Assembly: GCA_963920705.1 (NCBI GenBank)
Contig: OY987227.1
Coordinates: 25,773,935-25,837,934, forward strand
Length of the DNA: 64,000 nt
DNA from: Odiellus spinosus
Lineage: Eukaryota > Arthropoda > Arachnida > Opiliones > Phalangiidae
Direction of reading: 5' to 3'
Shown here: piece after piece, positions 6,089-63,674 of the stretch
How positions within the stretch are numbered: position 1 is the stretch's first letter
How the letters are laid out: each line of letters starts with the position of its first letter
Position numbers and translations under genes: made by a program
Notes under the pieces: generated by a model
Seen by the model: only the letters and a program-made list of their open reading frames with translations
Databases searched by the model: none
Told to the model about the DNA's origin: nothing

Positions 6089-6305
6089 AACTTGCATTTG
6101 GTTTGTGGGAAATAAAATTAAAAATAGTCTGGCAACCTGTAACTACAAAAATATGGCGGCGCGACTATGACTGAGACAAGCGCCCATTTCCGGCAAATCG
6201 ACCAGGACTATTAGCCACTTCAACGGTAGAAAAGGGGGTAGGCATCCTTCAGTATCAGGTATACAAAGGAACAGGTTCCCGAAATCAAAAAAAGAAAATT
6301 AATTT
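6083..6305. promoter_or_regulatory. C1D upstream region with ATGGCGGC motif
   Basis: This is sequence upstream of C1D. AAAAATATGGCGGC at 6147-6160 resembles the metazoan YY1/Pho site (ATGGCGGC) often found near starts of housekeeping genes. The promoter role is inferred from position only. Confidence 0.3.
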
Positions 6306-6352
6306 TTTTCAAGGGGTGTTTTTTTTTCAAGGGGTGTTTTATTTCCAACGGG
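6306..6352 (+). repeat. Degenerate outlying units of the 22-bp minisatellite
   Basis: Two to three imperfect copies of CAAGGGGTGTTTT lie about 370 bp before the main array (TTCAAGGGGTG twice, then CCAACGGGTGGGG). They show that the repeat unit existed outside the amplified island. Confidence 0.6.
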
Positions 6353-6719
6353 TGGGGAGTTTTGAAGAATAGGTCCCGGTAGCCATTTTTTATTTATTAT
6401 TTTTTTTTTTAAAAAAAAAGAGAAAAATTATGGTGTCAAAATTATTTGGGGCCGACAATTATCAACAAAGATATGTACGTTTCAAATTTGCCATTTTCCC
6501 GTTTTGCGCCATCGCGGTTCAAGGGAGGAAACGGCGGTAGATTAGAGGGATACCGCCAAGGTTCGTAAAAAAGCGCTATAACCTAACCTAACCTAACCTA
6601 GCCTAACCTAAAAATATTTTTTTTTGGAAAAAAAACAAAAAAACATTTTCTAATTTCAAATTTCAAGTCACCTACCCTTTAAAGTAAGCTTCGACCACCA
6701 ACCTTCACCGTCAAAATTT
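6353..6719. other. Spacer before the satellite island
   Basis: No gene is seen. The stretch holds A/T homopolymers, the telomere-like tract at 6582-6610 and the run-in CAAAATTTTACAAGGGG that starts the array. A similar ATTTTACAAGGGG phrase recurs at each internal linker of the 22-bp array. Confidence 0.5.
6582..6610. repeat. Interstitial (CCTAA)n telomere-like tract
   Basis: There are about six CCTAA pentamers, one with a single change (CCTAG). TTAGG is the canonical arthropod telomere unit. The tract sits about 110 bp outside the satellite island. Confidence 0.7.
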
Positions 6720-9700
6720 TACAAGGGGTGTTTTATTTTCATAAAGGGGTGTTTTATTTTCATAAAGGGGTGTTTTATTTTCATAAAGGGGTGTTTTATT
6801 TTCAAAAACAGGGTGTTATATTTTCAAAAAAGGGGTGTTTTATTTTCAAAAAAGGGTGTTTTATTTTCAAAAAAGGGGTGTTTTATTTTCAAAAAAGGGG
6901 TGTTTTATTTTCAAAAAATGGGTGTTTTATTTTCAAAAAAGGGGTGTTTTATTTTCAAATAAAGGGTGTTTTATTTTCAAAAAAGGGGTGTTTTATTTTC
7001 AAAAAAGGGGTGTTTTATTTTCAAAAAAGGAGTGTTTTATTTTCAAAAAAAGGGGTGTTTTATTTTCAAAAAAGGGGTGTTTTATTTTCAAAAAAGGGTT
7101 GTTTTATTTTCAAAAAAGGGGTGTTTTATTTTCAAAAAAGGGGTGTTTATTTTCAAAAAAGGGGTGTTTTATTTTCAAAAAAGGGGTGTTTTATTTTCAA
7201 AAAGGGTTGTTTTATTTTCAAAAAGGGGTGTTTTATTTTCAAAAAAAAAGTGTTTTATTTTCAAAAAAGGGGTGTTTTATTTTCAAAAAAGGGGTGTTTT
7301 ATTTTCAAAAAACGGGTGTTTTATTTTCAAAGAAGGGGTGTTTATTTTCAAAAAAGGGGTGTTTTATTTTCAAAAAACGGGTGTTTTATTTTCAAAAAAG
7401 GGGTTTTATTTTCAAAAAAGGGGTGTTTTATTTTCAAAAAAGGGGTACCCCTTGTAAAAAAAATAAATACACCCCCTGTAAAATAAATAATCAAAAATTT
7501 TACAAGGGGTGTTTTATTTTCATAAAGGGGTGTTTTATTTTCATAAAGGGGTGTTTTATTTTCATAAAGGGGTGTTTTATTTTCATAAAGGGGTGTTTTA
7601 TTTTCAAAAACAGGGTGTTATATTTTCAAAAAAGGGGTGTTTTATTTTCAAAAAAGGGGTGTTTTATTTTCAAAAAAGGGGTGTTTTATTTTCAAAAAAG
7701 GGGTGTTTTATTTTCAAAAAATGGGTGTTTTATTTTCAAAAAAGGGGTGTTTTATTTTCAAATAAAGGGTGTTTTATTTTCAAAAAAGGGGTGTTTTATT
7801 TTCAAAAAAGTGGTGTTTTATTTTCAAAAAAGGGGTGTTTTATTTTCAAAAAAAGGGGTGTTTTATTTTCAAAAAAAGGGGTGTTTTATTTTCAAAAAAG
7901 GGGTGTTTTATTTTCAAAAAAGGGTTGTTTTATTTTCAAAAAAGGGGTGTTTTATTTTCCAAAAAGGGGTGTTTATTTTCAAAAAAGGGGTGTTTTATTT
8001 TCAAAAAAGGGGTGTTTTATTTTCAAAAAAGTGGTGTTTTATTTTCAAAAAAGGGGTGTTTTATTTTCAAAAAAGGGGTGTTTTATTTTCAAAAAAGGGG
8101 TGTTTTATTTTCAAAAAAGGGGTGTTTTATTTTCAAAAAACGGGTGTTTTATTTTCAAAGAAGGGGTGTTTATTTTCAAAAAAGGGGTGTTTTATTTTCA
8201 AAAAACGGGTGTTTTATTTTCAAAAAAGGGGTGTTTTATTTTCAAAAAAGGGGTACCCCTTGTAAAAAAAATAAATACACCCCCTGTAAAATAAATAATC
8301 AAAAATTTTGCAAGGGGTGTTTTATTTTCATAAAGGGGTGTTTTATTTTCATAAAGGGGTGTTTTATTTTCATAAAGGGGTGTTTTATTTTCATAAAGGG
8401 GTGTTTTATTTTCAAAAACAGGGTGTTATATTTTCAAAAAAGGGGTGTTTTATTTTCAAAAAAGAGGTGTTTTATTTTCAAAAAAGGGGTGTTTTATTTT
8501 CAAAAAAGGGGTGTTTTATTTTCAAAAAATGGGTGTTTTATTTTCAAAAAAGGGGTGTTTTATTTTCAAATAAAGGGTGTTTTATTTTCAAAAAAGGGGT
8601 GTTTTATTTTCAAAAAAGGGGTGTTTTATTTTCAAAAAAGGGGTGTTTTATTTTCAAAAAAAGGGGTGTTTTATTTTCAAAAAAGGGGTGTTTTATTTTC
8701 AAAAAAGGGGTGTTTTATTTTCAAAAAAGGGTGTTTTATTTTCAAAAAAGGGGTGTTTTATTTTCAAAAAAAGGGGTGTTTTATTTTCAAAAAAGGGGTG
8801 TTTTATTTTCCAAAAAAGGGGTGTTTTATTTTCAAAAAAGGGGTGTTTTATTTTCAAAAAAGGGGTGTTTTATTTTCAAAGAAGGGGTGTTTTATTTTCA
8901 AAAAACTGGTGTTTTATTTTCAAAAAAGGGGTGTTTTATTATCAAAAAAGGGGTGTTTTATTTTCAAAAAAGGGGTATTTATTTTCAAAAAAGGGATACC
9001 CCTTGTAAAAAAAAATAAATACACCACCTGTAAAATAAATAATCAAAAATTTTACAAGGGGTGTTTTATTTTCATAAATGGGTGTTTTATTTTCAAAAAA
9101 GGGGTGTTTTATTTTCAAAAAAGGGGTGTTTTATTTTCAAAAAAGGGGTGTTTTATTTTCAAAAAATGGGTGTTTTATTTTCAAAAAAAGGGGTGTTTTA
9201 TTTTCAAATAAAGGGTGTTTTATTTTCAAAAAAGGGGTGTTTTATTTTCAAAAAAGGGGTGTTTTATTTTCAAAAAAGGGTGTTTTATTTTCAAAAAAGG
9301 GGTGTTTTATTTTCAAAAGAGGGGTGTTTTATTTTCAAAAAAGGGGTGTTTTATTTTCAAAAAAGGGGTGTTTTATTTTCAAAAAAAGGGGTGTTTTATT
9401 TTCAAAAAAGGGGTGTTTTATTTTCAAAAAAGGGGTGTTTTATTTTCAAAAAAGGGGTGTTTTATTTTCAAAAAAGGGGTGTTTTATTTTCAAAAAAGGG
9501 GTGTTTATTTTCAAAAAAGGGGTGTTTTATTTTCAAAGAAGGGGTGTTTTATTTTCAAAAAACTGGTGTTTTATTTTCAAAAAAGGGGTGTTTTATTATC
9601 AAAAAAGGGGTGTTTTATTTTCAAAAAAGGGGTATTTATTTTCAAAAAAGGGATACCCCTTGTAAAAAAAAATAAATACACCACCTGTAAAATAAATAAT

Positions 9701-10800
9701 CAAAAATTTTACAAGGGGTGTTTTATTTTCATAAATGGGTGTTTTATTTTCAAAAAAGGGGTGTTTTATTTTCAAAAAAGGGGTGTTTTATTTTCAAAAA
9801 AGGGGTGTTTTATTTTCAAAAAATGGGTGTTTTATTTTCAAAAAAGGGGTGTTTTATTTTCAAATAAAGGGTGTTTTATTTTCAAAAAAGGGGTGTTTTA
9901 TTTTCAAAAAAGGGGTGTTTTATTTTCAAAAAAGGGTGTTTTATTTTCAAAAAAGGGGTGTTTTATTTTCAAAAGAGGGGTGTTTTATTTTCAAAAAAGG
10001 GGTGTTTTATTTTCAAAAAAGGGGTGTTTTATTTTCAAAAAAAGGGGTGTTTTATTTTCAAAAAAGGGGTGTTTTATTTTCAAAAAAGGGGTGTTTTATT
10101 TTCAAAAAAGGGGTGTTTTATTTTCAAAAAAGGGGTGTTTTATTTTCAAAAAAGGGGTGTTTATTTTCAAAAAAGGGGTGTTTTATTTTCAAAGAAGGGG
10201 TGTTTTATTTTCAAAGAAGGGGTGTTTTATTTTCAAAAAACTGGTGTTTTATTTTCAAAAAAGGGGTGTTTTTTATCAAAAAAGGGGTGTTTTATTTTCA
10301 AAAAAGGGGTGTTTTATTTTCAAAAAAGGAGTGTTTTCTTTTCAAAAAAGGGGTGTTTTATTTTCAAAAAAGGGGTGTTTTATTTTCAAAAAAGGGGTGT
10401 TTTTTATTTTCAAAAAAGGGGTGTTTTATTTTCAAAAAAGGGGTGTTTTATTTTCAAAAAAGGGGTGTTTTATTTTCAAAAAAGGGGTGTTTTATTTTCA
10501 CAAAAGGGGTGTTTTATTTTCAAAAAAGGGGTGTTTTATTTTCAAAAAAGGGGTGTTTTATTTTCAAAAAAGGGGTGTTTTATTTTCACAAAAGGGGTGT
10601 TTTATTTTCAAAAAAGGGGTGTTTTATTTTCAAAAAAGGGGTGTTTTATTTTCAAAAAAGGGGTATTTTATTTTCAAAAAAGGGGTGTTTTATTTTCAAA
10701 AAAGGGGTGTTTTATTTTCAAAAAAGGGGTGTTTTATTTTCAAAAAAGGGGTGTTTTATTTTCAAAAAAGGGGTGTTTTATTTTCAAAAAAAGGGGTGTT
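6720..10800 (+). repeat. Array A: 22-bp minisatellite with higher-order structure
   Basis: The unit is GGGGTGTTTTATTTTC followed by six A, repeated through about 4.08 kb (very roughly 180 units by length). Variants include CATAAAG units at block starts and 21- or 23-bp length changes. Blocks of about 0.65-0.81 kb are separated by near-identical linkers at about 7445-7505, 8252-8312, 8996-9057 and 9651-9713, which contain TACACCCCCTGTAAAATAAA in reverse orientation and ATTTTACAAGGGG. The unit has no stop trinucleotide in any plus-strand frame, so all three frames stay open for hundreds of codons. I regard these as non-genic. Confidence 0.95.
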
Positions 10801-13760
10801 TTTTACAGGGTGTGTATTTTTAATTTTTTTTACAGGGGGTGTATTTTTAATTTATTTTTTTACAGGGGGTGTATTTTAAATTTTTTTTACAGGGGGTGTA
10901 TTTTTAATTAATTTTTTTACAGGGGGTGTATTTTTAATTTATTTTTTAACAAGGGGTGTATTTTTACAGGGGGTGTATTTTTAAATTATTTTTTTACAGG
11001 GGGTGTATTTTTAATTTATTTATTTTACAGGGGGTGTATTTTTAACTTATTTTTTAACAGGGGGGTGTATTTTTACAGGGGGTGTATTTTTAATTTATTT
11101 TTTACAGGGGGTGTATTTTTAATTTATTTTTTTTACAGGGGGTGTATTTTATTTTTTTTTTTTACAGGGGGTGTATTTTTAATTTTTTTTTTTACAGGGG
11201 GAGTATTTTTAATTTATTTTTTTACAGGGGGTGTATTTTTAATTAATTTTTTTACAGGGGGTGTATTTTTAATTTATTTTTTTACAGGGGGTATATTTTT
11301 ACAGGGGGTGTATTTTTAATTTATTTTTTTACAGGGGGTGTATTTTAAATTTATTTTTTACAGGGGGTGTATTTTTAATTTAATTTTTTTACAGGGGGTG
11401 TATTTTATTTTTTTTTTTTTTTACAGGGGGTGTATTTTTAATTTTTTTTTTCACAGGGGGTGTATTTTTAATTTATTTTTTTACAGGGGGTGTATTTTTA
11501 CAGGGGGTGTATTTTTATTTATTTTTTTACAGGGGGTGTATTTTTAATTTATTTTTTTTACAGGGGGTGTATTTTTAATTTATTTTTTACAGGGGGTGTA
11601 TTTTTAATTAATTTTTTTTACAGGGGGTGTATTTTTAATTTATTTTTTTACAGGGGGTGTATTTTTACAGGGGGTGTATTTTTAATTTATTTTTTTACAG
11701 GGGGTGTATTTTTAATTTATTTATTTTACAGGGGGTGTATTTTTAATTTATTTTTTAACAGGGGGTGTATTTTTACAGGGGGTGTATTTTTAATTTTTTT
11801 TTTTCAGGGGGTGTATTTTTAATTTATTTTTTTTACAGGGGGTGTATTTTATTTTTTTTTTTACAGGGGGTGTATTTTTAATTTATTTTTTTACAGGGGG
11901 TATATTTTTACAGGGGGTGTATTTTTAATTTATTTTTTTACAGGGGGTGTATTTTTAATTTATTTTTTTACAGGGGGTGTATTTTTAATTTATTTTTTTT
12001 ACAGGGGGTGTATTTTATTTTTTTTTTTTTACAGGGGGTGTATTTTTAATTTTTTTTTTTTTACAGGGGGTGTATTTTTAATTTATTTTTTTACAGGGGT
12101 GTATTTTTACAGGGGGTGTATTTTTATTTATTTTTTTTACAGGGGGTGTATTTTTAATTTATTTTTTTTACAGGGGGTGTATTTTTAATTTATTTTTACA
12201 GGGGGTGTATTTTTAATTAATTTTTTTACAGGGGGTGTATTTTTAATTTATTTTTTTACAGGGGGTGTATTTTTACAGGGGGTGTATTTTTAATTTATTT
12301 TTTTACAGGGGGTGTATTTTTAATTTATTTATTTTACAGGGGGTGTATTTTTAATTTATTTTTTTACAGGGGGTGTATTTTTAATTTATTTTTTTTACAG
12401 GGGGTGTATTTTATTTTTTTTTTACAGGGGGTGTATTTTTAATTTTTTTTTTTACAGGGGGTTTATTTTTAATTTATTTTTTTACAGGGGGTGAATTTTT
12501 ACAGGGGGTGTATTTTTAATTTATTATTTTACAGGGGGTGTATTTTTAATTTATTTATTTTACAGGGGGTGTATTTTTAATTTATTTATTTTACAGGGGG
12601 TGTATTTTTAATTTATTTTTTTACAGGGGGTGTATTTTTAATTTATTTTTTTTACAGGGGGTGTATTTTATTTTTTTTTTTTACAGGGGGTGTATTTTTA
12701 ATTTATTTTTTTACAGGGGGTGTATTTTTACAGGGGGTGTATTTTTAATTTATTTTTTTACAGGGGGTGTATTTTTAATTTTTTTTTACAGGGGGTGTAT
12801 TTTTAATTTTTTTTACAGGGGGTGTATTTTAAATTTATTTTTTTACAGGGGGTGTATTTTTAATTTATTTTTTTACATGGGGTGTATTTTTTATTTATTT
12901 TTTTACAGGGGGTGTATTTTTAACTTATTTTTAACAGGGGGTGTATTTTTACAGGGGGTGTATTTTTAATTTATTTTTTTACAGGGGGTGTATTTTTAAT
13001 TTATTTTTTTACAGGGGGTGTATTTTTACAGGGGGTGTATTTTTAATTTATTTATTTTACAGGGGGTGTATTTTTAATTTATTTTTTTACAGGGGGTGTA
13101 TTTTTAATTTATTTTTTTTACAGGGGGTGTATTTTATTTTTTTTTTTTACAGGGGGTGTATTTTTAATTTTTTTTTTACAGGGGGTGTATTTTTAATTTA
13201 TTTTTTTACAGGGGGTGAATTTTTACAGGGGGTGTATTTTTAATTTATTTTTTTACAGGGGGTGTATTTTTAATTTATTTATTTTACAGGGGGTGTATTT
13301 TTAATTTATTTATTTTACAGGGGGTGTATTTTTAATTTATTTTTTTACAGGGGGTGTATTTTTATTTTTTTTTTTACAGGGGGTGTATTTTTAATTTTTT
13401 TTTACAGGGGGTGTATTTTTAATTTATTTTTTTACAGGGGGTGTATTTTTAATTTATTTATTTTACAGGGGGTGTATTTTTAATTTATTTTTTAACAGGG
13501 GGTGTATTTTTACAGGGGGTGTATTTTTAATTTTTTTTTACAGGGGGTGTATTTTTAATTTATTTTTTTACAGGGGGTGTATTTTTACAGGGGGTGTATT
13601 TTTAATTTATTTTTTTACAGGGGGTGTATTTTTAATTTATTTATTTTACAGGGGTGTATTTTTAATTTATTTTTTAACAGGGGGTGTATTTTTACAGGGG
13701 GTGTATTTTCAATTTATTTTTTTACAGGGGGTGTATTTTTAATTTTTTTTTACAGGGGGG
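10801..13760 (+). repeat. Array B: ~30-bp minisatellite, G-rich strand on plus
   Basis: The unit is ACAGGGGGTGTATTTTTAAT followed by TTATT and a T run, about 30 bp but varying by T-tract length. A short 17-bp form lacks the TAATTTATT part. It follows array A across a sharp junction at 10785-10810 and ends at the palindromic centre. Confidence 0.95.
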
Positions 13761-13774
13761 TGTACACCCCCTGT
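13751..13774. repeat. Palindromic centre of the mirrored island
   Basis: ACAGGGGGG, then TGTACA, then CCCCCTGT form a near-perfect palindrome. To its left all units carry the G-rich sequence on the plus strand; to its right all carry the C-rich complement. Confidence 0.9.
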
Positions 13775-16700
13775 AAAAAAATAAATTACAAATACACCCC
13801 CTGTAAAAATACACCCCCTGTAAAAAAAATAAATAAAAAATACACGCCCTGTTAAAAAAATGAATTAAAAATACACCCCCTGTAAAAAAAATAGATTAAA
13901 AATACATCCCCTGTAAAAAAATAAATTAAAAATACACCCCCTGTAAAAAAAAAAAATTAAAAATACACCCCCTGTAAAAAAATAGATTAAAAATACACCC
14001 CCTGTAAAAAAAAAAAAATTAAAAATACTCCTCCTGTAAAAAAAAATAAATAAAAATACACCCCCTGTTAAAAAAATGAATTAAAAATACACCCCCTGTA
14101 AAAAAAAAAAAAATTAAAAATACACCCCCTGTAAAAAAAAATAAATTAAAAATACACCCCCTGTAAAAAAATAAATTAAAAATACACCCCTATTAAAAAA
14201 ATAAATTAAAAATACACCCCCTGTAAAAAAAAGAAATTAAAAATACACCCCCTGTAAAAAAAATGAATTAAAAATACACCCCCTGTAAAAAAAAATTAAA
14301 AATACACCCCCTGTAAAAAAAAATAAATTAAAAATACACCCCCATTAAAAAAATAAATTAAAAATACACCCCCTGTAAAAAAAATGAATTAAAAATACAC
14401 CCCATGTAAAAAAAAAATTAAAATTACACCCCCTGTAAAAAAAAATAAATTAAAAATACACCCCCTGTAAAAAATAAATTAAAAATACACCCCCACTAAA
14501 AAAAATAAATTAAAAATACACCCCCAGTAAAAAAAGAAATTAAAAATACACCCCCTGTAAAAAAAAATAAATTAAAAATACACCCCCTGTAAAAAAAAAA
14601 AATAATTTAAAAATACACCCCCAGTAAAAAAAAAAAATTAAAAATACACCCCCTGTTAAAAAATAAATTAAAAATACACCCCCTGTAAAATAAATAAATT
14701 AAAAATACACCCCCTGTAAAAAAATAAATTAAAAATACACCCCCTGTAAAAATACACCCCCTGTAAAAAAAATAAATTTAAAATACACCCCCTGTAAAAA
14801 AAATGAATTAAAAATACACCCCCTGTAAAAAAATTAAAAATACACCCCCTGTAAAAAAAATAAATTAAAAATACACCCCCTGTAAAAATACACCCCCTGT
14901 AAAAAAAATAAATTTAAAATACACCCCCTGTAAAAAAAATGAATTAAAAATACACCCCCTGTAAAAATAAATTAAAAATACACCCCCTGTAAAAAAAATA
15001 AATTAAAAATACACCCCCATTAAAAAAAAAAAATTAAAAATACACCCCCTGTAAAAAAAAAGAAATTAAAAATACACCCCCTGTAAAAAAAAATGAATTA
15101 AAAATACACCCCCTGTAAAAAAAATTTAAAATACACCCCCTGTAAAAATACACCCCCTGTAAAAAAATAAATTAAAAATACACCCCCTGTAAAAAAAATA
15201 AATTAAAAATACACCCCCTGTAAAAAAATAAATAAAAATACAACCCCTGTTAAAAAAATGAATTAAAAATACACCCCCTGTAAAAAAAAATTTAAAAATA
15301 CACCCCCTGTAAAAATACACCCCCTGTAAAAAAATAAATTAAAAATACACCCCCTGCAAAAAAAAAAAAAAAATTAAAAATACACCCCCTGTAAAAAAAT
15401 AAATTAAAAATAAACCCCCTGTAAAAAAAAATAAATTAAAAATACACCCCCTGTAAAAATACACCCCGTGTAAAAAAAAAAATTAAAAATACACCCCCTG
15501 TAAAAAAAAAAAAATTAAAAATACACCCCCTGTAAAAAAATAAATAAAAAATACACCCCCTGTAAAAATACACCCCCTGTAAAAAAAATAAATTAAAAAT
15601 ACACCCCCTGTAAAAAAAATTAAAAATACACCCTGTAAAAATACACCCCCTGTAAAATAATAAATTAAAAATACACCCCCTGTAAAAAAATAAATTAAAA
15701 ATACACCCCCATTAAAAAAAATAAATTAAGAATACACCCCCTCTAAAAAAAATAAATTAAAAATACACCCCCTGTAAAAAAAAAAAAAATTTAAAATACA
15801 CCCCCTGTAAAAATACACCCCCTCTAAAAAAAAAAATTAAAAATACACCCCCTGTAAAAAAAAAAATTAAAAATACACCCCCTGTAAAAAAATAAATTAA
15901 AAATACACCCCCTGTAAAAATACACCCCCTGTTAAAAATAAGTTAAAAATACACCCCCTGTAAAAAAATAAATTAAAAATACACCCCATGTAAAAAAATA
16001 AATTAAAAATACACCCCCTGTAAAAAAATAAATTTAAAATACACCCCCTGTAAAAAAAAATTAAAAATACACCCCCTGTAAAAAAAAATTAAAAATACAC
16101 CCCCTGTAAAAAAATAAATTAAAAATACACCCCCTGTAAAAATACACCCCCTGTAAAAAAAATAAATTAAAAATACACCCCCTGTAAAAAAAATTAAAAA
16201 TACACCCTGTAAAAATACACCCCCTGTAAAATAATAAATTAAAAATACACCCCCTGTAAAAAAATAAATTAAAAATACACCCCCATTAAAAAAAAAAAAA
16301 TAAGAATACACCCCCTCTAAAAAAATAAATTAAAAATACACCCCCTGTAAAAAAAAAAAAAAATTAAAAATACACCCCCTGTAAAAAAAATAAATTAAAA
16401 ATACACCCCCTGTAAAAAAATTAAAAATACACCCCCTGTAAAAAAATTAAAAATACACCCCCTGTAAAAAAAAATAAATTAAAAATACACCCCCTGTAAA
16501 AAAAATAAATTAAAAATACACCCCCTGTAAAAATACACCCCCTGTAAAAAAAAATAAATTAAAAATACACCCCCTGTAAAAAAAATAAATTAAAAATACA
16601 CCCCCTGTAAAAATACACACCCTGTAAAAAAAATAAATTAAAAATACACCCCTTGTAAAAAAAAATTAAAAATACACCCCCTGTAAAAATACACCCCCTG

Positions 16701-19700
16701 TAAAAATACACCCCTGTAAAATAATAAATTAAAAATACACCCCCTGTAAAAAAATAAAAATACACCCCCATTAAAAAAAAAAAATTAAGAATACACCCCC
16801 TGTAAAAAAAAATAAATTAAAAATACACCCCCTGTAAAAAAAAAAATTAAAAATACACCCCCTGTAAAAAAAAATAAATTAAAAATACACCCCCTGTAAA
16901 AAAATAAATTAAAAATACACCCCCTGTAAAAAAATTAAAAATACACCCCCTGTAAAAAAAAAAAAATTAAAAATACACCCCCTGTAAAAAAAAATAAATT
17001 AAAAATACACCCCCTGTAAAAAAATAAATTAAAAATACACCCCCTGTAAAAAAATTAAAAATACACCCCCTGTAAAAAAAAAAATTAAAAATACACCCCC
17101 TGTAAAAAAAATAAATTAAAAATACACCCCCTGTAAAAATACACCCCCTGTAAAAATACACCCCCTGTAAAAAAAATAAATTTAAAATACACCCCCTGTA
17201 AAAAAAATGAATTAAAAATACACCCCCTGTAAAAAAAAATTAAAAATACACCCCCTGTAAAAAAAATAAATTAAAAATACACCCCCATTAAAAAAAATGA
17301 ATTAAAAATACACCCCCTGTAAAAAAAATTTAAAATACACCCCCTGTAAAAATACACCCCCTGTAAAAAAATAAATTAAAAATACACCCCCTGTAAAAAA
17401 AATAAATTAAAAATACACCCCCTGTAAAAAAATAAATAAAAATACAACCCCTGTTAAAAAAATGAATTAAAAATACACCCCCTGTAAAAAAAAATTTTAA
17501 AAATACACCCCCTGTAAAAATACACCCCCTGTAAAAAAATAAATTAAAAATACACCCCCTGCAAAAAAAAAATAAATTAAAAATACACCCCTGTAAAAAA
17601 ATAAATTAAAAATAAACCCCCTGTAAAAAAAAATAAATTAAAAATACACCCCCTGTAAAAATACACCCCGTGTAAAAAAACAAATTAAAAATACACCCCC
17701 TGTAAAAAAAAAAATTAAAAATACACCCCCTGTAAAAAAATAAATTAAAAATACACCCCCTGTAAAAATACACCCCCTGTAAAAAAAAAAATTAAAAATA
17801 CACCCCCTGTAAAAAAAATTAAAAATACACCCTGTAAAAATACACCCCCTGTAAAATAATAAATTAAAAATACACCCCCTGTAAAAAAATAAATTAAAAA
17901 TACACCCCCATTAAAAAAAATAAATTAAGAATACACCCCCTCTAAAAAAAATAAATTAAAAATACACCCCCTGTAAAAAAAAAAAAATTAAAAATACACC
18001 CCCTGTAAAAATACACCCCCTCTAAAAAAAAAATTAAAAATACACCCCCTGTAAAAAAAAAATTAAAAATACACCCCCTGTAAAAATACACCCCCTGTAA
18101 AAAAATAAATTAAAAATACACCCCCTGTAAAAAAATAAATTAAAAATACACCCCCTGTAAAAAAATAAATTAAAAATACACCCCCTGTAAAAATACACCC
18201 CCTGTTAAAAATAAGTTAAAAATATACCCCCTGTAAAAAAATAAATTAAAAATACACCCCATGTAAAAAAATAAATTAAAAATACACCCCCTGTAAAAAA
18301 ATAAATTTAAAATACACCCCCTGTAAAAAAAAATTAAAAATACACCCCCTGTAAAAAAAAATTAAAAATACACCCCCTGTAAAAAAATAAATTAAAAATA
18401 CACCCCCTGTAAAAATACACCCCCTGTAAAAAAAATAAATTAAAAATACACCCCCTGTAAAAAAAATTAAAAATACACCCTGTAAAAATACACCCCCTGT
18501 AAAATAATAAATTAAAAATACACCCCCTGTAAAAAAATAAATTAAAAATACACCCCCATTAAAAAAAAAAAATTAAGAATACACCCCCTCTAAAAAAAAT
18601 AAATTAAAAATACACCCCCTATAAAAAAAAAAAATTAAAAATACACCCCCTGTAAAAAAAATAAATTAAAAATACACCCCCTGTAAAAAAATTAAAAATA
18701 CACCCCCTGTAAAAAAATTAAAAATACACCCCCTGTAAAAAAAATAAATTAAAAATACACCCCCTGTAAAAAAAATAAATTAAAAATACACCCCCTGTAA
18801 AAATACACCCCCTGTAAAAAAAAATAAATTAAAAATACACCCCCTGTAAAAAAAATAAATTAAAAATACACCCCCTGTAAAAATACACACCCTGTAAAAA
18901 AAATAAATTAAAAATACACCCCCTGTAAAAAAAAATTAAAAATACACCCCCTGTAAAAATACACCCCCTGTAAAAATACACCCCTGTAAAATAATAAATT
19001 AAAAATACACCCCCTGTAAAAAAATAAAAATACACCCCCATTAAAAAAAATAAATTAAGAATACACCCCCTGTAAAAAAAAATAAATTAAAAATACACCC
19101 CCTGTAAAAAAAAAAAAATTAAAAATACACCCCCTGTAAAAAAAATAAATTAAAAATACACCCCCTGTAAAAAAATAAATTAAAAATACACCCCCTGTAA
19201 AAAAATTAAAAATACACCCCCTGTAAAAAAAAAAAATTAAAAATACACCCCCTGTAAAAAAAATAAATTAAAAATACACCCCCTGTAAAAATACACCCCC
19301 TGTAAAAAAAATAAATTTAAAATACACCCCCTGTAAAAAAAATGAATTAAAAATACACCCCCTGTAAAAAAAAATTAAAAATACACCCCCTGTAAAAAAA
19401 ATAAATTAAAAATACACCCCCATTAAAAAAAATAAATTAAAAATACACCCCCTGTAAAAAAAAGAAATTAAAAATACACCCCCTGTAAAAAAAAATGAAT
19501 TAAAAATACACCCCCTGTAAAAAAAATTTAAAATACACCCCCTGTAAAAATACACCCCCTGTAAAAAAAATAAATTAAAAATACACCCCCTGTAAAAAAA
19601 ATAAATTAAAAATACACCCCCTGTAAAAAAATAAATAAAAATACACCCCCTGTAAAAAAATAAATAAAAATACAACCCCTGTTAAAAAAATGAATTAAAA

Positions 19701-22055
19701 ATACACCCCCTGTAAAAAAAAATTTAAAAATACACCCCCTGTAAAAATACACCCCCTGTAAAAAAATAAATTAAAAATACACCCCCTGCAAAAAAAAAAA
19801 AAAAAATTAAAAATACACCCCCTGTAAAAAAATAAATTAAAAATAAACCCCCTGTAAAAAAATAAATTAAAAATACACCCCCTGTAAAAATACACCCCCT
19901 GTAAAAATACACCCCCTGTAAAAAATAAATTAAAAATACACCCCCTGTAAAAAAAATTAAAAATACACCCTGTAAAAATACACCCCCTGTAAAATAATAA
20001 ATTAAAAATACACCCCCTGTAAAAAAATAAATTAGAAATACACCCCCATTAAAAAAAATAAATTAAGAATACACCCTCTCTAAAAAAAAATAAATTAAAA
20101 ATACACCCCCTGTAAAAAAAAAAAAAATTAAAAATACACCCCCTGTAAAAATACACCCCCTCTAAAAAAAAATTAAAAATACACCCCCTGTAAAAATACA
20201 CCCCCTCTAAAAAAAAATTAAAAATACACCCCCTGTAAAAAAAAAAATTAAAAATACACCCCCTGTAAAAATACACCCCCTGTAAAAAAATAAATTAAAA
20301 ATACACCCCCTGTAAAAAAATAAATTAAAAATACACCCCCTGTAAAAATACACCCCCTGTTAAAAATAAGTTAAAAATACACCCCCTGTAAAAAAATAAA
20401 TTAAAAATACACCCCATGTAAAAAAATAAATTAAAAATACACCCCCTGTAAAAAAATAAATTTAAAATACACCCCCTGTAAAAAAAAATTAAAAATACAC
20501 CCCCTGTAAAAAAAATTAAAAATACACCCCCTGTAAAAAATAAATTAAAAATACACCCCCTGTAAAAATACACCCCCTGTAAAAAAAATAAATTAAAAAT
20601 ACACCCCCTGTAAAAAAATTAAAAATACACCCTGTAAAAATACACCCCCTGTAAAATAATAAATTAAAAATACACCCCCTGTAAAAAAATAAATTAAAAA
20701 TACACCCCCATTAAAAAAAAAAATTAAGAATACACCCCCTCTAAAAAAAATAAATTAAAAATACACCCCCTGTAAAAAAAATAAATTAAAAATACACCCC
20801 CTGTAAAAAAATTAAAAATACACCCCCTGTAAAAAAATTAAAAATACACCCCCTGTAAAAAAAATAAATTAAAAATACACCCCCTGTAAAAAAAATAAAT
20901 TAAAAATACACCCCCTGTAAAAATACACCCCCTGTAAAAATACACCCCCTGTAAAAAAAAATAAATTAAAAATACACCCCCTGTAAAAAAAAATTTAAAA
21001 TACACCCCCTGTAAAAATACACCCCCTGTAAAAAAATAAATTAAAAATACACCCCCTGTAAAAAAAATAAATAAAAATACAACCCCTGTTAAAAAAATTA
21101 ATTAAAAATACACCCCCTGTAAAAAAAAAAATTTAAAAATACACCCCCTGTAAAAATACACCCCCTGTAAAAAAATAAATTAAAAATACACCCCTGCAAA
21201 AAAAAAAATTAAAAATACACCCCCTGTAAAAAAATAAATTAAAAATACACCCCCTGTAAAAATAAAATAAATTAAAAATACACCCCCTGTAAAAATACAC
21301 CCCGTGTAAAAAAAAATTAAAAATACACCCCCTGTAAAAAAAATAAATTAAAAATACACCCCCTGTAAAAAAATAAATTAAAAATACACCCCCTGTAAAA
21401 AAAAAATAATTAAAAATACACCCCCTGTAAAAATACACCCCCTGTAAAAAATAAATTAAAAATACACCCCCGGTAAAAATACACCCCCTGTTAAAAATAA
21501 GTTAAAAATACACCCCCTGTAAAAAAATAAATTAAAAATACACCCCCTGTAAAAAAAATAAATTACAAATACACCCCCTGTAAAAAAATAAATTAAAAAT
21601 ACACCCCATGTAAAAAAAATAAATTAAAAATACACACCCTGTAAAAAAAATAAATTTAAAATACACCCCCTGTAAAAAAAATTAAAAATACACCCCCTGT
21701 AAAAAAAAAATTAAAAATACACCCCCTGTAAAAAAAAAAAAATTAAAAATACACCCCCTGTAAAAAAAATTAATTAAAATTACACCCCCTGTAAAAAAAA
21801 TTAATTAAAATTACACCCCCTGTAAAAATACACCCCCGGTTAAAAAATAAATTAAAAATAAACCCCTTGTAAAAAAATAAATTAAAAATACACCCCCAGT
21901 AAAAAAAAAAAAAATTAAAAATACACCCGCTGTAAAAAAATAAATTAAAAATACACCCCCTCTAAAAAAAAAATTGAAAATACACCCCCTGTAAAAAAAA
22001 TAAATTAAAAATACACCCCCTGTAAAAAAAATAAATTAAAAATACACCCCCTGTA
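13761..22055 (-). repeat. Array C: ~30-bp minisatellite, inverted copy of array B
   Basis: The unit is the reverse complement of array B: TACACCCCCTGTAAAAAAAT then AAATTAAAAA. It extends over about 8.3 kb. Rare variants recur at about 2.2-kb spacing. CAACCCCTGTTAAAAAAATG occurs near 15240, 17450 and 19670. The phrase around TACACCCTGTAAAAATACAC occurs near 15622, 16197, 17825, 18473, 19965 and 20628. This shows a higher-order repeat of about 2.2 kb, present roughly three times. Confidence 0.95.
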
Positions 22056-22828
22056 AAAAACACCCCTTTTTTAAGATAAAACACCCCTTTTTTGAAAATA
22101 AAACACCCCTTTTTTGAAAATAAAACACCCCTTTTTTGAAAATAAAACACCCCTTTTTTTAAAATAAAACACCCCTTTTTTTGAAAATAAAACACCCCTT
22201 TTTTGAAAATAAAACAATCCTTTTTTTGAAAATAAAACACCCCTTTTTTGAAAATAAAACACCCCTTTTTTGAAAATAAAACAACCCTTTTTTGAAAATA
22301 AAACACCCCTTTTTGAAAATAAAACACCCCTTTTTTGAAAATAAAACACCCCTTTTTTGAAAATAAAACACCCCTTTTTTGAAAATAAAACACCCCTTTT
22401 TTGAAAATAAAACACCCCTTTTATGAAAATAAAACACCCCTTTTATGAAAATAAAACACCCCTTTTATGAAAATAAAACACCCCTTTTTTGAAAATAAAA
22501 CACCCCTTTTTTGAAAATAAAACACCCCTTTTTTGAAAATAAAACACCCCTTTTTTGTAAATAAAACCACTTTTTTAGAAATAAAACCCCCCTTTTTTGA
22601 AAATAAAACACCCCTTTTTTGAAAATAAAACCCCCCTTTTTGGAAAATAAAACACCCCTTTTTGGAAAATAAAACACCCCTTTTTTGAAAATAAAACACC
22701 CCTTTTTTGAAAATAAACCCCCTTTTTTGAAAATAAAACCACTTTTTTTAGAAATAAAACCCCCCTTTTTGGAAAATAAAAAACCCCTTTTTGGAAAATA
22801 AAAAACCCCTTTTTGGAAAATAAAACAC
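22056..22828 (-). repeat. Array A-prime: 22-bp minisatellite, inverted copy of array A
   Basis: Units are AAAACACCCC, then TTTTTT, then GAAAAT, the complement of array A. It includes three TTTTATG (CATAAAA) units at about 22429-22470, like the CATAAAG units on the left. Some units near the distal end are decayed (CCACTTTTTTAG, CCCCCTTTTTGG). It joins array C through the mirror image of the A/B junction. Confidence 0.93.
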
Positions 22829-23317
22829 CAAATTGAGATTGAGAAAAAAAATTGAGATTAAGAAAAAAAATTGAGATTAAGAAAAAAATTGAGATTAAGA
22901 AAAAAATTGAGATTAAGAAAAAAATTGAGATTAAGAAAAAAATTGAGATTAAGAAAAAAATTGAGATTAAGAAAAAAATTGAGATTAAGAAAAAAATTGA
23001 GATTAAGAAAAAAATTGAGATTAAGAAAAAAATTGAGATTGAGAAAAAAAATTGAGATTGAGAAAAAAATTGAGATTGAGAAAAAAATTGAGATTGAGAA
23101 AAAAATTGAGATTGAGAAAAAAATTGAGATTGAGAAAACAATTGAGATTGAGAAAAAAAATTGAGATTGAGAAAAAAAATTGAGATTGAGAAAAAAAATT
23201 GAGATTGAGAAAAAAAATTGAGATTGAGAAAAAATTGAGATTGAGAAAAAATTGAGATTGAGAAAAAATTGAGATTGAGAAGAAATTGAGATTGAGAAAA
23301 AATTGAGATTGAGAAAT
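22829..23317. repeat. 18-bp minisatellite (ATTGAGATTRAG + A run)
   Basis: About 27 units of TTGAGATTGAG or TTGAGATTAAG plus six to eight A. The ATTAAG form makes up one uninterrupted block (about 22857-23035), with the ATTGAG form on both sides. It is unrelated in sequence to the GGGGTGT arrays. The reading IEIKKK on plus, and its antisense readings, are composition-driven. Confidence 0.92.
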
Positions 23318-24466
23318 AAATAATAAATACACCCCATGTAAAAAAAAATAATAAATACACCCCCTGTAAAAAAAAAAATAAATACACCCCCTGTAAAAAA
23401 AAAAAAGAATAACTACACCCCCTGTAAATAAAAATAAATAATAAATACACCCCCTGTAAAAAAAATAATAAATACACCCCCTGTAAAATAAATAATAAAT
23501 ACACCCCCTGTAAAAAAAATAAATAATAAAGACACCCCCTGTAAAAAGAAATAAATAATAAATACACCCACTGTAAATAAAAATAAAAAATAAATACACC
23601 CCCCGGTAAAAAAAATAAATACACCCCCTGTAAATAAAAATTAATAATAAATACACCCCCTGTAAATAAAAATTAATAATAAATACACCCTCTGTAAAAA
23701 AATAATAAATACACCCCCTGTAAATAAAAATAAATAATAAATACACCCCCTGTAAAAAGAAATAAATAATAAATACACCCCTTGTAAAAAATAATAAATA
23801 CACTCCCTGTAAATAAAAATAAATAATAAATACACCCCCTGGAAATAAAAATAAATAATAAATACACCCCCTATAAAAAAAATTAAAAAATACACCCCCC
23901 TGTAAAAAGAAATTAATAATAAATACACCCCCTGTAAAAAAATAATAAATACACCCCCTGTAAAAAAAAATAATAAATACACCTCCTGTAAAAAAATAAT
24001 AAATACACCCCTGTAAATAAAAATAAATAAATACACCCCCTGTAAAAAAAAGTAATAAATACACCCCCTGCAAAAAGAAATTAATAAATACACCCCCTGT
24101 AAAAAGAAATAAATAATAAATACACCCCCTGTAAATAAAAATAAATAAATTTACCCCCTGTAAAAAAAAAAAAAATTCACCCCCTGTAAAAAGAAATAAT
24201 AAATACACTCCTTGTAAAAAAATAAATAATAAATACACCCCCTGTAAAAAATAATAAATACACCCCTGTAAAAAGAAATAAATAATAAATACACCCCCTG
24301 TAAAAAAAATAATAAATACACCCGCTGTAAAAAAAATAATAAATACACCCCCTGTAAAAAGAAATAATACACCCCCTGTAAAAAGAAATAAATAATACAC
24401 CCCCTGTAAAAAAATAATAAATACACCCCCTGTAAAAAGAAATAAATAATAAATACACCCCCTGTA
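23318..24466 (-). repeat. Array D: third GGGGTGT-core minisatellite (24-33 bp units)
   Basis: The unit is AATAATAAATACACCCCCTG followed by TAAA and a short A, AAGAAA or TAAAAA spacer. Units share the TACACCCCCTGTAAA core with array C but have a different spacer and more length variation. The array ends sharply at CCCCCTGTAAG (24466). Confidence 0.93.
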
Positions 24467-24930
24467 AGTTTTATTTATTCCATTTTTTTGTACCATTACT
24501 TTTGAAATTATCAACCTTCTCTACAGAATTTACATGGGATCCTGGGTCGGCTGTAAAATGGAAATTATATCTTTGTTTTTGAAAAATAACAACTAGATAA
24601 TTTAGCGGAACATTTTAATCATTTTGTTTAGTTTTGTAATTACATAATTTTGGAAGCACATTTCATATATACTTTTATAACTTTTTGTTTCGAATACGAC
24701 GTATCGTCTTTAGGCACTGTCTTTTCAAAGCCCCGAACAACACCAACGGCGGACGAACAAAGCTCCGACGGTATAAACCGCGCGGACCATATTTTCTACG
24801 GCTTATTTACGAAGGTTAACCTTTAGATAACGCGAAGGTACCGAGTTAATTACGCGTATCACGACGCGTTTCTAAATTTTATTTATTAAACCGAGTGGAC
24901 AGCCCGATTCATCAGGCCGGCAGTCATCAG
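24467..24930. other. Dscam 3' UTR and flank
   Basis: No coding sequence is recognised. TTTATT at 24880-24885 reads AATAAA on the minus strand, about 46 bases after the proposed Dscam stop, so the mature 3' end may lie near 24860. The satellite island begins about 400 bp further on. Confidence 0.4.
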
Positions 24931-24965
24931 TCACGTGACGTGAAGTCTGCGAAAATCCGCTTCGT
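24931..24965 (-). CDS. Dscam: Dscam proposed last coding exon
   Basis: The acceptor CCTGTCCTAG is followed by codons for DEADFRRLHVT and a TGA, in phase with the donor at 25052. Using the next AG instead gives DFTSRD and a stop. The exon is short, so it is tentative. Confidence 0.35.
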
Positions 24966-27900
24966 CTAGGACAGGAACGTACACCTTCTTACCTTAAAAG
25001 AATATTTAAATATGGCGATTACAGATATTCGATCGGTGACGAGAGTTTTACCTTTTCCGAAAGCGTCACGCTGGTCGCGGTCGCATTCCGCTTCCGAAAG
25101 CTCGTGGCTGTCGCCGAAACTTCTGAAAGCGTGTTGACCGCCGTGGAATGTGTATGTTGTTCCCTCGCTGTCGCTCTCTTCACCAGAATGGCTGTTCAAA
25201 CGACAAGTGAACAATAGCGCTGTTGAGATTCTAATTACAAAGAAACGAGAGAAAAGTAGAAAAAAATAGGTGCTTTTTTTTTTGGATCACGGTAAATGGA
25301 GGCCCTTAGGACTCGGATTTTGGTTTAAAATTAAAACATACATTGACACGTATCAAAAGTCTATAAAACCATTTCCGTTGAAGTTACTAACTCCTTATTT
25401 TCGTCGTTGACGAAAGAATTGACGAACGAGCTCGTGGACCAGCATTTTTCTATCATTACTCGTGCTAAAATTAACGAATACCTTATCATTTAACCACGCT
25501 ATAAATAATGTATCGTAAACAAATTCGAATATTGCTTTTCAGCTCAGCACGATAAAACTTGAGTTGGGAACTTCCCACGAAAGGTGATTTTATAGACTTC
25601 TGATCGTAGGTTTTTTTGGAAAAATAGTTCCCAAGATAGTTGCGCAGCAAACAGCGGAGTTGAAAAAACTATTCGGTTGGCTGAATTTCACTCTACAGCT
25701 AATTTTACGAGGTGCAATTTATTCTTCGTGTAAAATTCTGGTGATAATTTAACGTATTTAAACCCATTACGCATAGAAATAGTAAATAATTTGGCTAAAT
25801 TTTATTTATGCGATTACGTAACTGATTACAGTCTTCGGTAATGCCACATACCGTCGCTCTCAGTTACGTAATCGTGGAGTGATCAACCCAGCGCACTTTT
25901 TCCGTTCATAACGGCACGTGTAACGTCGTCTGCTTCGCGCGGATCATGGAAACCATGTATCTAGCTTCTATAGGTAAATTTTCGAATCAAATAAGCTCAG
26001 AGAATGATTTCGTTTCTCGATTTTAACCTTTTTAAATTGAGAACCGTTCGACAATTTCTTGAATTAAACGATCAATTGTTAATTAGGATAATAGGATACG
26101 TTTAAACTCGTTAATACGCGTAGCCACGGTGTGAATAAAGAATGTGATTATGTAAAGGAAAAGTTAATTCCGTTATTGTGCCACACAATTTTACAAAGCC
26201 TTCGAACGAGAAAAAAAATTGTAATTCTTACACGCGGGCTTGTACCAAATACGTGTAGAGACATTAAAAAAATGAGTTCTTATAGTTAAATGTATTTTAC
26301 GAGCCTGGCCGCTTCTCTACAGAAACAACAGTTACAACTGTTGCAGTATAGACATCTGGGAAGAAACAAAATAAAATGAATCGCCGTAACCCTAACCCTA
26401 ATTAATTAATCAAAATAGCTATAGCGTTTAATTTAATCATCATTGAAATTAATTATTGATTTTATCAATTATGGGTCAAATTTGATGTTAATCAAAGAAT
26501 ATTAAGAAATAGAGTTATAATAACACTTATGTTATAAAGATGTCCTCAAAAGTCAAATTACAAATATATAATTCTAAAGGTACGCGTGTCTTTCGGTATA
26601 TACTAACCATTTCAGTTGAAAAACTTACCCTTCAGAAGTTAAGCTCGAATGGCGGTAAGGGGATCTCGTAGCGTGGACTAGACGGACTGGATTTTTCTCG
26701 ACCGGTGGTCGGACGGGTAAAGGAGGCATGATCCCTGTTGAAAGCAATAAATAACAGAACGATAATCGAAAATTAAAATTAATTATTGCGAAAATAATTA
26801 TAGGGAGTTAAAAAAAAGCAGAGTCGAACATAGCGCTCGGAATAACTAGGATTTTTTCAGATATTTTAATCTCAGATAAATTGTTAATATAAAACCACAA
26901 ATTATATACCAGAAGTAGACGAAACCCTCCTTAGAAGTCTACTACTCTAATGTTCGATATAGCGCTCCTCTCTGTATGGGTAAAAATCCCAATTTTACGA
27001 GATCGGAGGGGTCCTACTTCATACCCCCCTGTCTACGGAAAATTGGAAATTCTCTCACTCCACAAACGACGACGTTTTTTTAACGAACTCCGAGGCTGCT
27101 AGAGATATTCTCTCGACGAACTCCCGCTCCGAAAATATCTACCGTTAGGAGGCGTACGAATCGCGCTTTTTGAAACTAACCCATACAGAGAGGGTAGACA
27201 AGACCAGGGAGTAACAGACTTCAAAGGAGGGTTTCATCGGCTTCTGTTAATAAACAAATTACGCGTTTATTCAAACGGATAATGCGAAGATAAAAATATC
27301 TTGTTTCTCGAAATCCGCGTGTAGAATGAAATATAATAATTATATTTTAATCTAAATTGAAAGGAACAGCGACTAAACTGAATACATTTTAGCTTCAAGA
27401 TCTTAATTTTGTTAAAATCGACGAAGAGACTCGAGTTTCAAATCAGCGAATGAATAACTCGTATAACCAGAGGTATATAATAACCCCCTTCGGGGGGAAG
27501 TATGAAAGGTAGGCAAAATCGACGAACAACAAGTGCCCGGCGTAAATCGCGGCGGATCGACACACCGCTCTACTCCCAAAAAATAGTTACACCATTTTGA
27601 ACCTCACTAAATTTTCCCTACGCACACTTCCGGAACTCGCGAGCTGAAGTCAACCTTCGACTCCATTTTAGCAGACAGCCTGACTCCCGAGACAGGAAGT
27701 TCTAAACACAAATCGAGCCGTCTTGTTTATACAAAGACCATTTACTAGAGTAGCGACATTGAGTAGTCCAGCGCGAGCTAGTGGCCTAGATAGTCAGCAG
27801 CGGGCTCTTGTTGTTCGTGATTTTTAGCATTGGTAGTATAGGGGCTTTCATACTTCCCCCCGAAGGGGATTATTATATAACTCTGGTTTAACGTATCAAT

Positions 27901-30900: not shown

Positions 30901-33900
30901 CATGTTCATCGTGCGAATTTATAGCCATTTCCTATTGGTCGGGACAGTCGCGTGACTAAGTATAAGTATTTACCCACAAACCCTTATAATGAATCAGATG
31001 TGTGTTTGCCTTACCATCCCTCCATCCACAAACCACATTTTGTAGAAAAACGTGTAATTCTTCCATAGGTGCTAGGTTAATCACTTTTGGAACAATTATT
31101 GAGTTTAGCTTATATGGCGCATGCGTATTGGATTTTAGCATGTAAATTAGGGGAATAAATAATTTCCGACCAAAACTTTTGACCGCATTAAGTTCCCCAC
31201 CCCATTTACTGCCAGAAACGCTCAAAAACCTTAAGAAAACTGAGGAGGAGGTCCCAAAATACTAAATCCCCACTTATACAGTAGAAAAATAAAAAATAAA
31301 AAATCATACTTTCAAATTTACGTGGTATTTGTAGGCGAAATGCAGTTGAAATTAAATAAAATTAGGTTATAATGGTTTCTAATACCTCCGCCTTGGGTTC
31401 TGGATCCCACAGTTGAACTGGCTTTACTCTTGCCGATGCCGTTGAAAGCTACGATGTAAAATTCGTAAAGACATCCGCAGTCCAAGTTCTGGTACGTATA
31501 GCTAGTCTGATGGGCTGCCATCTGACGGTCGTCCCACGCTTCCTGTTCTTTGTGACTGTAGAGATAGTACCCTGCGTGGATAGTAAAGCCGTAGGATTGA
31601 GTCAGTTACGCTGGAATACAATACAAAAACGATACAAGACGACACGTTCATGAATTGCACAGTGTCCATTGTTTACCATACAATTCATCTTAGTTCTGTG
31701 GCGGTAGAGTAATACAATGGAATACGTAGTAAAATATCGTAGTGACGTCATGAGAATTGCTCATTATATCCCTTTTTCAATCTAGAGCAACGTCCACACA
31801 AGGCAAATTGAAATGCTTTCAATTTCCCAACAGTCTTGTATGGTCAAAATGAACCTTTTAAGCTACAAAAATCTCATACTTAAACCCTTTTCAGACGGGT
31901 CGTAACTAGCCGGTTTAATCAGATTTAACCATGGTTTATTCAAAATTAACCGAGGTTTATTGAACTGAAAAGGCTATGTAAACCTCGGTTAAATCTGATT
32001 AAACCACAGCTAATTACGCCTCGTCTGAAGAGGATATTAGGGCCAAAATACTCTAGATATCATTTTGGAAACTTTAGCTTCCAAATTCCCAACAGTCTTG
32101 AATGGTCAAAAAAAAAAAAAAAAAAAAATCTACATTTTAAGCTCTAAATATAATAATATATATGGCTAAAATACACTATACATTTCATTTTGGGTTTTCC
32201 AAACGTGTTAAAAACGTTTTGGAAATATTTCGCGCGAACGAGGCTTCTAATGTCGTGTATAACTCCATTAGAAAATGCAAATAGAATTAGGTGGAATTCT
32301 GTAATATTGATACCATATCCTCGGAAGAGCGTATAAAAACGAGATATTGGCATTAATGTCGCCTAAATATCGCGGTAATGGATAGTAAAGAGGATGATGA
32401 TTTCGATTCGCGCGCTTGTCAAATATTGTTAATCGAATGAAGACGAGTCGGGATATTAGGTTTGATTCGTGAATAATCTCGAATTTAGTCTGGAATCGGG
32501 TAAATATATATTAATTAGGCCACCTCCGTACCTGAAACGGGTGGATTATCGCCGAGCGGAGCGTTCCACTGAAGATGGATGGACGAGGTTGTGACGGCTT
32601 CAACGGACAAGACGACGGCTACCGGAGGATCTGTAAACAACGGTAAATCGAGAATCGCGAGCCAAAAGCTCTTTCAATTAGTCCTATCAGAAATAGATGA
32701 ACCGAAATTATCAACGAGAGCTTAGTTTGGGAAATGCATTTTATTTGGAGTGAATGGGGAGGGTAAGCACTGGGGGAATGGGCTTCCTCGGCCTCAATGA
32801 AATACCGAGGAGGATCTTGGGAAACTGATCGCCCCACGTAGCGACGGCTGCAAACCAAGCCAGGTGGCGCATTCAACGTTTCTCGGCTAGGCGAAATTCC
32901 GCGGGGGAGGGGGCTACAACTGTCGTCTAAGAGAGGGGAAACGGAGAACTTGCCTGTGGCGTTAGAGGAATAGCTCGTTGATAATTTCGGTTCATCTATT
33001 TCTGGTCCTATATATGCAAAATCCGGTACACCAACTCTACTCTAACCGTGAAAGTCACCCGAAACTCGATGAGTGGAACGGTCTGGTAATCTTTAGTAGA
33101 GTTCTCGGGTGACATTAACCACGAGTATAAATTCTACTATCCAATTCCTCCTATTTGCCCGTTTCGTAGTTTATAATACTGGCTTCAATTTACATCCGAT
33201 TAACACGCGAAGGTCTTATAACTCTATATATTTGGCGGACTAGGTATACGAGCCGTTACCGATTTAATATCAGAAATTTAATCCATCGTATTGTCTAATT
33301 CCTCTATGTTTCGTCTACAAGGTGTTGTTCCGCCTTCATGAACCACTTCCATTACTCACAATGAAACCTTACCACTAACTTGGCTAGGTCTATAACTAAT
33401 CTGCGACTGGCCTTAGAAATATTATCCACTCAAAATTAAATTAAAACATTAAATATTAATGTTATTTTTATTACTAAATGAAAGAAAGAGAAAAATCAAA
33501 GATTTTCTCTAAAATGTCGTAGAAATTTTATGATTTTTGCTTTTCTAAAGTTAAATTTCATAAATTCGGACTCCATACGCGTAAAAACCGTACAAAAACT
33601 CACCCAATGTTTCTCAATAATTTACAGTTAATTGTAAAACTCGCGAACTAAACTCGCTAAGCCTAAATCCTTCGAGAATAAATTTTAGACTGGAAACATT
33701 TTTGGAGAAAACTGAGTACTCTTGTAAACAGCTCTTTCGGTTAATTCAAACGCCATTTCAAAGATTAACTATTTCCATCAGCAGAAGCCGATGAAACCCT
33801 CCTTTGAAGTCTACTACTCCAATGTTCCATATAGCGCTCCTCTCTGTATGGGTAAAATTCCCAATTTTACGAGTTAGAAGGGGTCCTAATTCATCCCCCC

Positions 33901-63336: not shown

Positions 63337-63674
63337 CAGAAGTAGATGAAACCCTCCTTTGTAGTCTACTACTCTAATGTTCCATATAGCGCTCCTCTCT
63401 GTATGGGTAAAATTCACAATTTTACGAGATCGGAGGGGTCCTACTTCATACCCCCTGTCTACGGAAAATTGGAAATTCTCTCTCTCCACAAACGACGACG
63501 TTTTTTTTGACAAACTCCGAGGCTGCTAGGGATATTCGCTCGACGAACTCCCGCTCCGAAAATATCTACCGTTATGAGGCGTACGAATCGCGGTTTTTGA
63601 AACTAACCCATACAGAGAGGGGTAGACAAGACCAGGGAGTAATAGACTTCAAAGGAGGGTTTCATCGGCTTCTG
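63337..63674 (+). mobile_element. MITE family M1, copy 8, TSD GACAAAT
   Basis: A 338-bp copy with perfect 7-bp duplication GACAAAT (63330-63336 and 63675-63681). Confidence 0.93.

Follow-up and report, generated by a model that had tools for sequence, protein, structure and literature searches.

The stretch of DNA analysed here (the window) comprises 64,000 nucleotides from Odiellus spinosus, corresponding to C3:25773935-25837934 in an assembly of 443 Mb and 286 contigs, and it holds, with gene exons on either side, an island of short tandem repeats arranged as a nested mirror about a palindromic centre. This island is one of many mirrored islands in the genome. The order of its arrays was taken from the assembly sequence alone, the arrays being mapped by Tandem Repeats Finder and motif painting, and from left to right its parts are as follows.

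6274-6354, + strand: outer left remnant, an edge common to an island at C14:1.70-1.72 Mb followed by about three 18-bp units (6303-6354)
6355-6715, + strand: dispersed element resembling a miniature inverted-repeat transposable element (MITE), with TAACC repeats, cut off where the 22-bp array starts
6723-10802, + strand: left 22-bp array (Tandem Repeats Finder, motif painting), five segments split by four short edge units
7460, 8268, 9012 and 9669: the short edge units (28-type motif) inside the left 22-bp array
10789-10821, + strand: left 22-to-30 junction, 1 mismatch to the junction pattern
10799-13763, + strand: left 30-bp array, of 17- and 30/31-bp units
13724-13774, no strand: palindromic centre with arms head to head, turning point near 13763, hairpin z score -12.3
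13764-22057, - strand: right 30-bp array, with block duplications of about 2.2 kb
22038-22070, - strand: right 22-to-30 junction, 0 mismatches to the pattern
22057-22829, - strand: right 22-bp array (Tandem Repeats Finder, motif painting)
22830-23321, - strand: 18-bp array, no left partner
23314-24467, - strand: 28-bp array (a 30-type relative), the island's right end, no left partner; single-copy DNA beyond

The island is thus a kilobase-scale palindrome of oppositely oriented satellite subarrays, its long inverted ends are built with tandem repeats, and two units placed head to head form its turning point. Folded as a 171-base DNA strand, the centre has a predicted energy of -62.1 kcal/mol against a mean of -23.4 for shuffled sequences, none of the 200 shuffles being as good. 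The junctions between the 22-bp and 30-bp arrays are nearly identical in the two arms when compared with a 33-base pattern, which lies within two mismatches of 57 places in the assembly; two places outside the window have one mismatch and none has zero. Not all of the 57 are 22-to-30 junctions, because the pattern also picks variant units in 17-bp arrays, and they were counted separately from the 22-to-inner junction search given below. An earlier note on this DNA had described a nested mirror of 22-bp and 30-bp arrays about a palindromic centre, with unequal arms, and the mapping bears this out, the arm lengths being 4.1 kb (22-bp) and 3.0 kb (30-bp) on the left and 0.8 kb and 8.3 kb on the right. 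The mirror holds for these two shells and is incomplete as a whole, because the 18-bp and 28-bp arrays on the right are without a left counterpart; likewise, the extent given in the note, 6720-24466, is right at its right end (24467) but not at its left, the true edge of the island lying near 6274. The long open reading frames within the arrays, in a list of those of at least 150 amino acids, are translated repeats.

The assembly-wide search for the units of the island, which had been proposed as a check, shows how widespread they are. An 18-mer from the inner unit has 87,160 exact matches and its backwards control none, and a 22-mer from the 22-bp unit has 2,434 and 2,326 matches on the two strands. 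Half-sites at most 30 bases apart stand head to head at 153 places and tail to tail at 12; the 153 centres have half-sites in common, with a spacer of 0-30 bases that varies among loci, and the 50 distinct positions listed fall into 33 clusters at 40 kb, on C1-C5. The 22-to-inner junction is found at 63 places in 35 clusters, nine of which have both strands, and all nine run plus then minus, that is, they are convergent. The places of the 33-base pattern form 21 clusters, with both strands in four, all four convergent, and when the two junction searches are pooled both strands occur in 13 of 48 clusters, convergent in every case. Most clusters are one-stranded, and therefore one-armed islands or mutated mates appear to be common. 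The transition zones between satellites recur, both at this junction and at the outer edge of the 22-bp array, which is kept at 17 of the 19 junctions of opposite orientation (a count that includes two in the window's left array) and is mirrored in the two islands where both outer edges were caught. At a further locus, G000:C3:27051849-27060772, five convergent centres lie 2-3 kb apart, four of them near-identical; they may form a tandem array in which every monomer is a mirror.

Individual islands were also compared. The convergence of twelve of these (L038-L049) is not counted as a test, because they were selected by a convergent centre; the 22-type outer shell is present on both sides in L038, L048 and L049. 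Three further islands were selected without regard to the centre, by taking the first entries in the list of 18-mer matches, and two of them, L065 and L066, form convergent mirrors. The island J51 (L062+L051+L063) has a 16-bp and further 30-type shells outside its 18-bp shell on both sides, one short palindromic segment linking the 16-bp and 18-bp blocks on each arm. In L068 and L069 unit variants peculiar to the locus are present on both arms. As to a gradient of unit age outward from the centre, the window gives no clear trend in percent match and J51 a weak one.

On average, the inner arms of one locus resemble each other more than they resemble the arms of other loci. Across 14 loci, left and right inner arms have a mean similarity of 0.86, against 0.59 between loci, none of 20,000 random pairings attaining the observed sum, and in seven of these loci the best match of both arms is their own mate. 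The 30-bp arms of the window have a mutual similarity of 0.98, the best of 24 other arms reaching 0.85. Mirrored order was tested by rank correlation of shared rare k-mers from the centre outward, with a rotation control: the correlation is 0.96-0.98 in L052 (reached or exceeded by 7-12% of rotations), 0.73-0.88 in L068 (3-5%) and 0.38-0.51 in the window as a whole, and the test is uninformative at L069 and L050, where the control does equally well. Locally, units 12713-12951 and 15915-16154 of the window's 30-bp arms align in mirrored order with a score of 18.8, the maximum of 30 shuffles being 10.1.

The earlier note had also proposed that each arm went on changing in length after the mirror formed, and traces of such changes can be recognized. 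The longest exact repeats of the right 30-bp arm measure 165-347 bases and are for the most part spaced by 2.1-2.3 kb or 4.4 kb. Those of the left 22-bp array have spacings mainly of 656-828 bases and more, which keep step with the edge units; the right 22-bp array, at 773 bp, corresponds to about one segment of the left one. The unequal arms fit block duplications together with the presence, at the left edge, of a dispersed element that is truncated. That element (6355-6715) aligns over query bases 1-361 at 20 other places, among 40 scored of 258 candidates, and four full copies of it continue into an inverted second end that is missing at the window. The sequence TCAAA is present on either side of the break, and 9-bp duplications readable by eye in two of the four full copies (L054, L055) are the sole basis for calling it similar to a Mutator-like element (MULE). 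The element was probably inserted into the left arm, a later deletion removing its right half along with the outer shells.

The edge itself, a 37-bp sequence running from the end of a dispersed repeat into satellite at the window's left end, is found within three mismatches at a single other place, the right end of the C14:1.70-1.72 Mb island, whose left end has a two-base insertion in it. In another island, at C14:6369-6385 kb, both ends start with one edge unit and are 94% identical over 289 bp; end sequences vary between the other islands. Some edges are thus shared and conserved, and therefore edges and shells seem to have been copied together. Neither the window nor J51 showed a convincing target-site duplication; exact matches there reach at most eight bases and lie in AT-rich DNA or repeats; the ends of the C14 islands were checked for such duplications by eye only. 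The right flank of the window island is single copy, positions 24440-25200 matching themselves alone in the assembly, and the longest match common to its two flanks is 43 bp. A non-tandem element with GTCAGGGAAAATCGTTGGAAAAGGTC adjoins three islands (L057, L063, L070).

At C14:1704-1723 kb the inverted repeat extends more than 500 bases beyond the arrays into non-tandem DNA, at 93-94% identity. Bases 1-414 of this outer stretch, used as a query, match only the two ends of the island among 40 scored of 370 candidates, and bases 415-511 are a dispersed repeat. This favours an explanation in which an inverted duplication would have run past the array into neighbouring DNA, and local fold-back duplication is favoured over transposon ends, because the latter should recur at other copies. 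The dispersed repeat adjoining this island, of about 97 bp and the one from whose end the 37-bp edge runs into satellite, has two copies in Dscam introns of the window (46704-46800 and 56410-56506) and at least 38 further places.

The earlier note had placed the island between C1D and Dscam. To its right, open frames on the - strand do match the C-terminal Fn3-like domain of DSCAM (PF25059) and Fn3. To its left lies a TAF1A-like gene (PF14929), and the exons there that the note called C1D, a putative name taken from that label and from how the exon reads, gave 0 Pfam families for the two open frames tested. The remaining repeats of the window are another dispersed repeat, marked by an open-frame fragment with STTPMFHIALLSVWVKFPILR and present at about eight places around the Dscam exons, and two unrelated minisatellites.

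26935-27282, 33758-34133, 44412-44655 and 49358-49636: STTPMFHIALLSVWVKFPILR repeat
55117-55518, 58664-58954, 60354-60582 and 63322-63683: STTPMFHIALLSVWVKFPILR repeat, further places
34806-35342: 29-bp minisatellite, 18.5 copies
41825-42106: 20-bp minisatellite, 13.4 copies, GGAATCACGCGAATCGATTC

We consider it rather probable that the island belongs to a genome-wide family of satellite macro-dyads, in which mirrors are made or renewed by local fold-back and the arms then change in length. Such islands consist of short G-rich units in nested shells, commonly ordered from outer to inner as 15-18-bp, 18/22-bp and 17/30/32-bp units, both arms directing the G-rich strand toward a short palindromic centre, and they seem to have been copied among loci along with their edges, perhaps by ectopic exchange, circles or transposition. 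A broken or stalled end may fold at a short palindrome, prime its own synthesis and copy one arm in inverted orientation, sometimes with adjacent host DNA, after which each arm would lengthen or shorten via block duplication and deletion. The islands contain short perfect palindromes such as ACAAGGGGTACCCCTTGT, which makes priming by fold-back a natural route. Fold-back copying as the maker of the mirrors, in general and at the window, is what we infer from these patterns, as are the mode of island movement and the deletion of the outer left shells. The simplest reading of the islands is that they are a selfish by-product.

Several observations weigh against this origin. The matches of the inner 18-mer are divided unequally between the strands (34,390 and 52,770), which is not expected of pure mirrors and suggests long one-orientation arrays somewhere in the assembly, and both strands are present in only nine of the 35 clusters of 22-to-inner junctions. 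One of the three islands selected without regard to the centre, L067, is divergent. In the other seven of the 14 loci at least one arm is matched best by an arm other than its mate; the 22-bp arms of the window have a mutual similarity of 0.96 and reach up to 0.99 with other loci, and the arm similarities therefore make the window's inner array locus-specific in both arms but not its 22-bp array. At 95% identity the left arm is covered to 7% by its own right arm and to 54% by a control from other loci, which at 33 kb is longer. In L052 and L068 the correlation exceeds the rotation control by no more than a modest margin, and mirrored order is absent within the window's 30-bp arms (about 0), in J51 (0.13) and in L036-37 (negative); over the whole 30-bp arms positions are uncorrelated (Spearman -0.04 and -0.15), the order being local only. 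Single-copy flanking DNA lies within the inverted repeat in one of four islands compared (C14:1.70 Mb), and not at the window, J51 or C14:6.37 Mb.

The same features may be read in other ways. A non-autonomous DNA transposon of the foldback type (FB/Tetris kind), with inverted ends made of tandem arrays, transposase supplied elsewhere and later tandem expansion, would account for long tandem-repeat ends around a hairpin centre, for open frames of at least 150 amino acids that are all translated repeats, and for dispersed copies with recurring shell order and edges, as well as for the similar ends of the C14:6369-6385 kb island and the edge common to the window and C14:1.70-1.72 Mb; we nevertheless regard it as possible rather than likely, given the lack of a convincing target-site duplication at the window or J51, the variation of ends between islands and the inclusion, in the C14 inverted repeat, of DNA with no other match among the 40 scored of 370 candidates. 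A little more tentative still is the idea that the islands are self-building palindromes, dispersed satellites in which fold-back at built-in short palindromes copies one arm from the other, so that new unit variants originate close to the centre and move outward on both sides alike, as onion layers; if true, satellites would grow replicatively without a transposase and, if transcribed, they would be a source of long hairpin RNA.

It is improbable that the window mirror is an accident of inversion within an ordinary satellite library of related, randomly oriented units: unit families common to several loci, one-stranded clusters and the divergent L067 would be expected of a library, but it is already strained by 153 convergent against 12 divergent centres and by two-strand clusters that converge in 13 of 13 cases. 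Tandem arrays are difficult to assemble, and a read joined to its own reverse complement could mimic a mirror; such a simple assembly artefact is nonetheless very unlikely in view of two arms that are not the same in length or sequence, a single-copy right flank that does not resemble the left one, and the recurrence of the plan at many places. We give equally little credence to a putative selected chromosomal element, whether centromeric, a barrier or forming hairpin RNA: Tribolium has similar symmetries in regions that are putatively centromeric and the centre is a strong potential hairpin, yet the window island sits between genes.

Layered alpha-satellite arrays of primates are arranged head to tail. 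The mirrored islands are like them in that layers of repeat variants flank a younger core (PMC2729386), and unlike them in that the window arms are inverted. Closer counterparts have been published, so that the suggestion of the earlier note that this plan is without a named satellite is not supported. In the macro-dyad symmetries of Tribolium, oppositely oriented subarrays of the intermingled satellites TmSat1 and TmSat2, with conserved transitions, occupy putative (peri)centromeric regions of multi-megabase size, and their monomers, of 225/704 bp, are built of subunits of about 110 bp; according to the authors, satellite macro-dyads are documented solely in Tribolium (PMC13081366). The window family shares with these the opposite subarrays, intermingled satellites and conserved transitions, and differs from them in forming separate islands (the window one about 18 kb, in genic surroundings) with 15-32-bp units, at least three nested shells and centre spacers that vary among loci. 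The window island does not lie within a multi-megabase (peri)centromeric region, having single-copy DNA on its right and exons on both sides.

In Tetris, a foldback transposon of Drosophila virilis, the target-site duplications measure 8-10 bp and the repeats 220 bp, and there is a defined flanking domain (PMC4079207). With it the islands have in common long inverted ends, a variable number of tandem repeats within them, the absence of a conserved open frame, and tandem repeats that form satellite-like arrays as well, and they are unlike this element in that neither a target-site duplication nor a common end is established for them. The short satellite-like arrays scattered across the oyster genome are similar in distribution but, to judge from the title, are carried by Helentron elements (PMC7492417). 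The literature searched, with most subscription journals outside its coverage, described neither these units nor dispersed islands with several mirrored shells, and five unit strings searched as text gave no match in it.

In conclusion, the structure is real, its form and setting are new, and its kind is already known. With many small mirrored islands in one genome, individual in their variants and flanks, the way in which such palindromes originate could be tested at each locus separately, through the amount of flank copied, the likeness of the arms and the joint change of both arms. Such islands connect foldback elements, satellites and inverted duplications, subjects that are usually treated separately.

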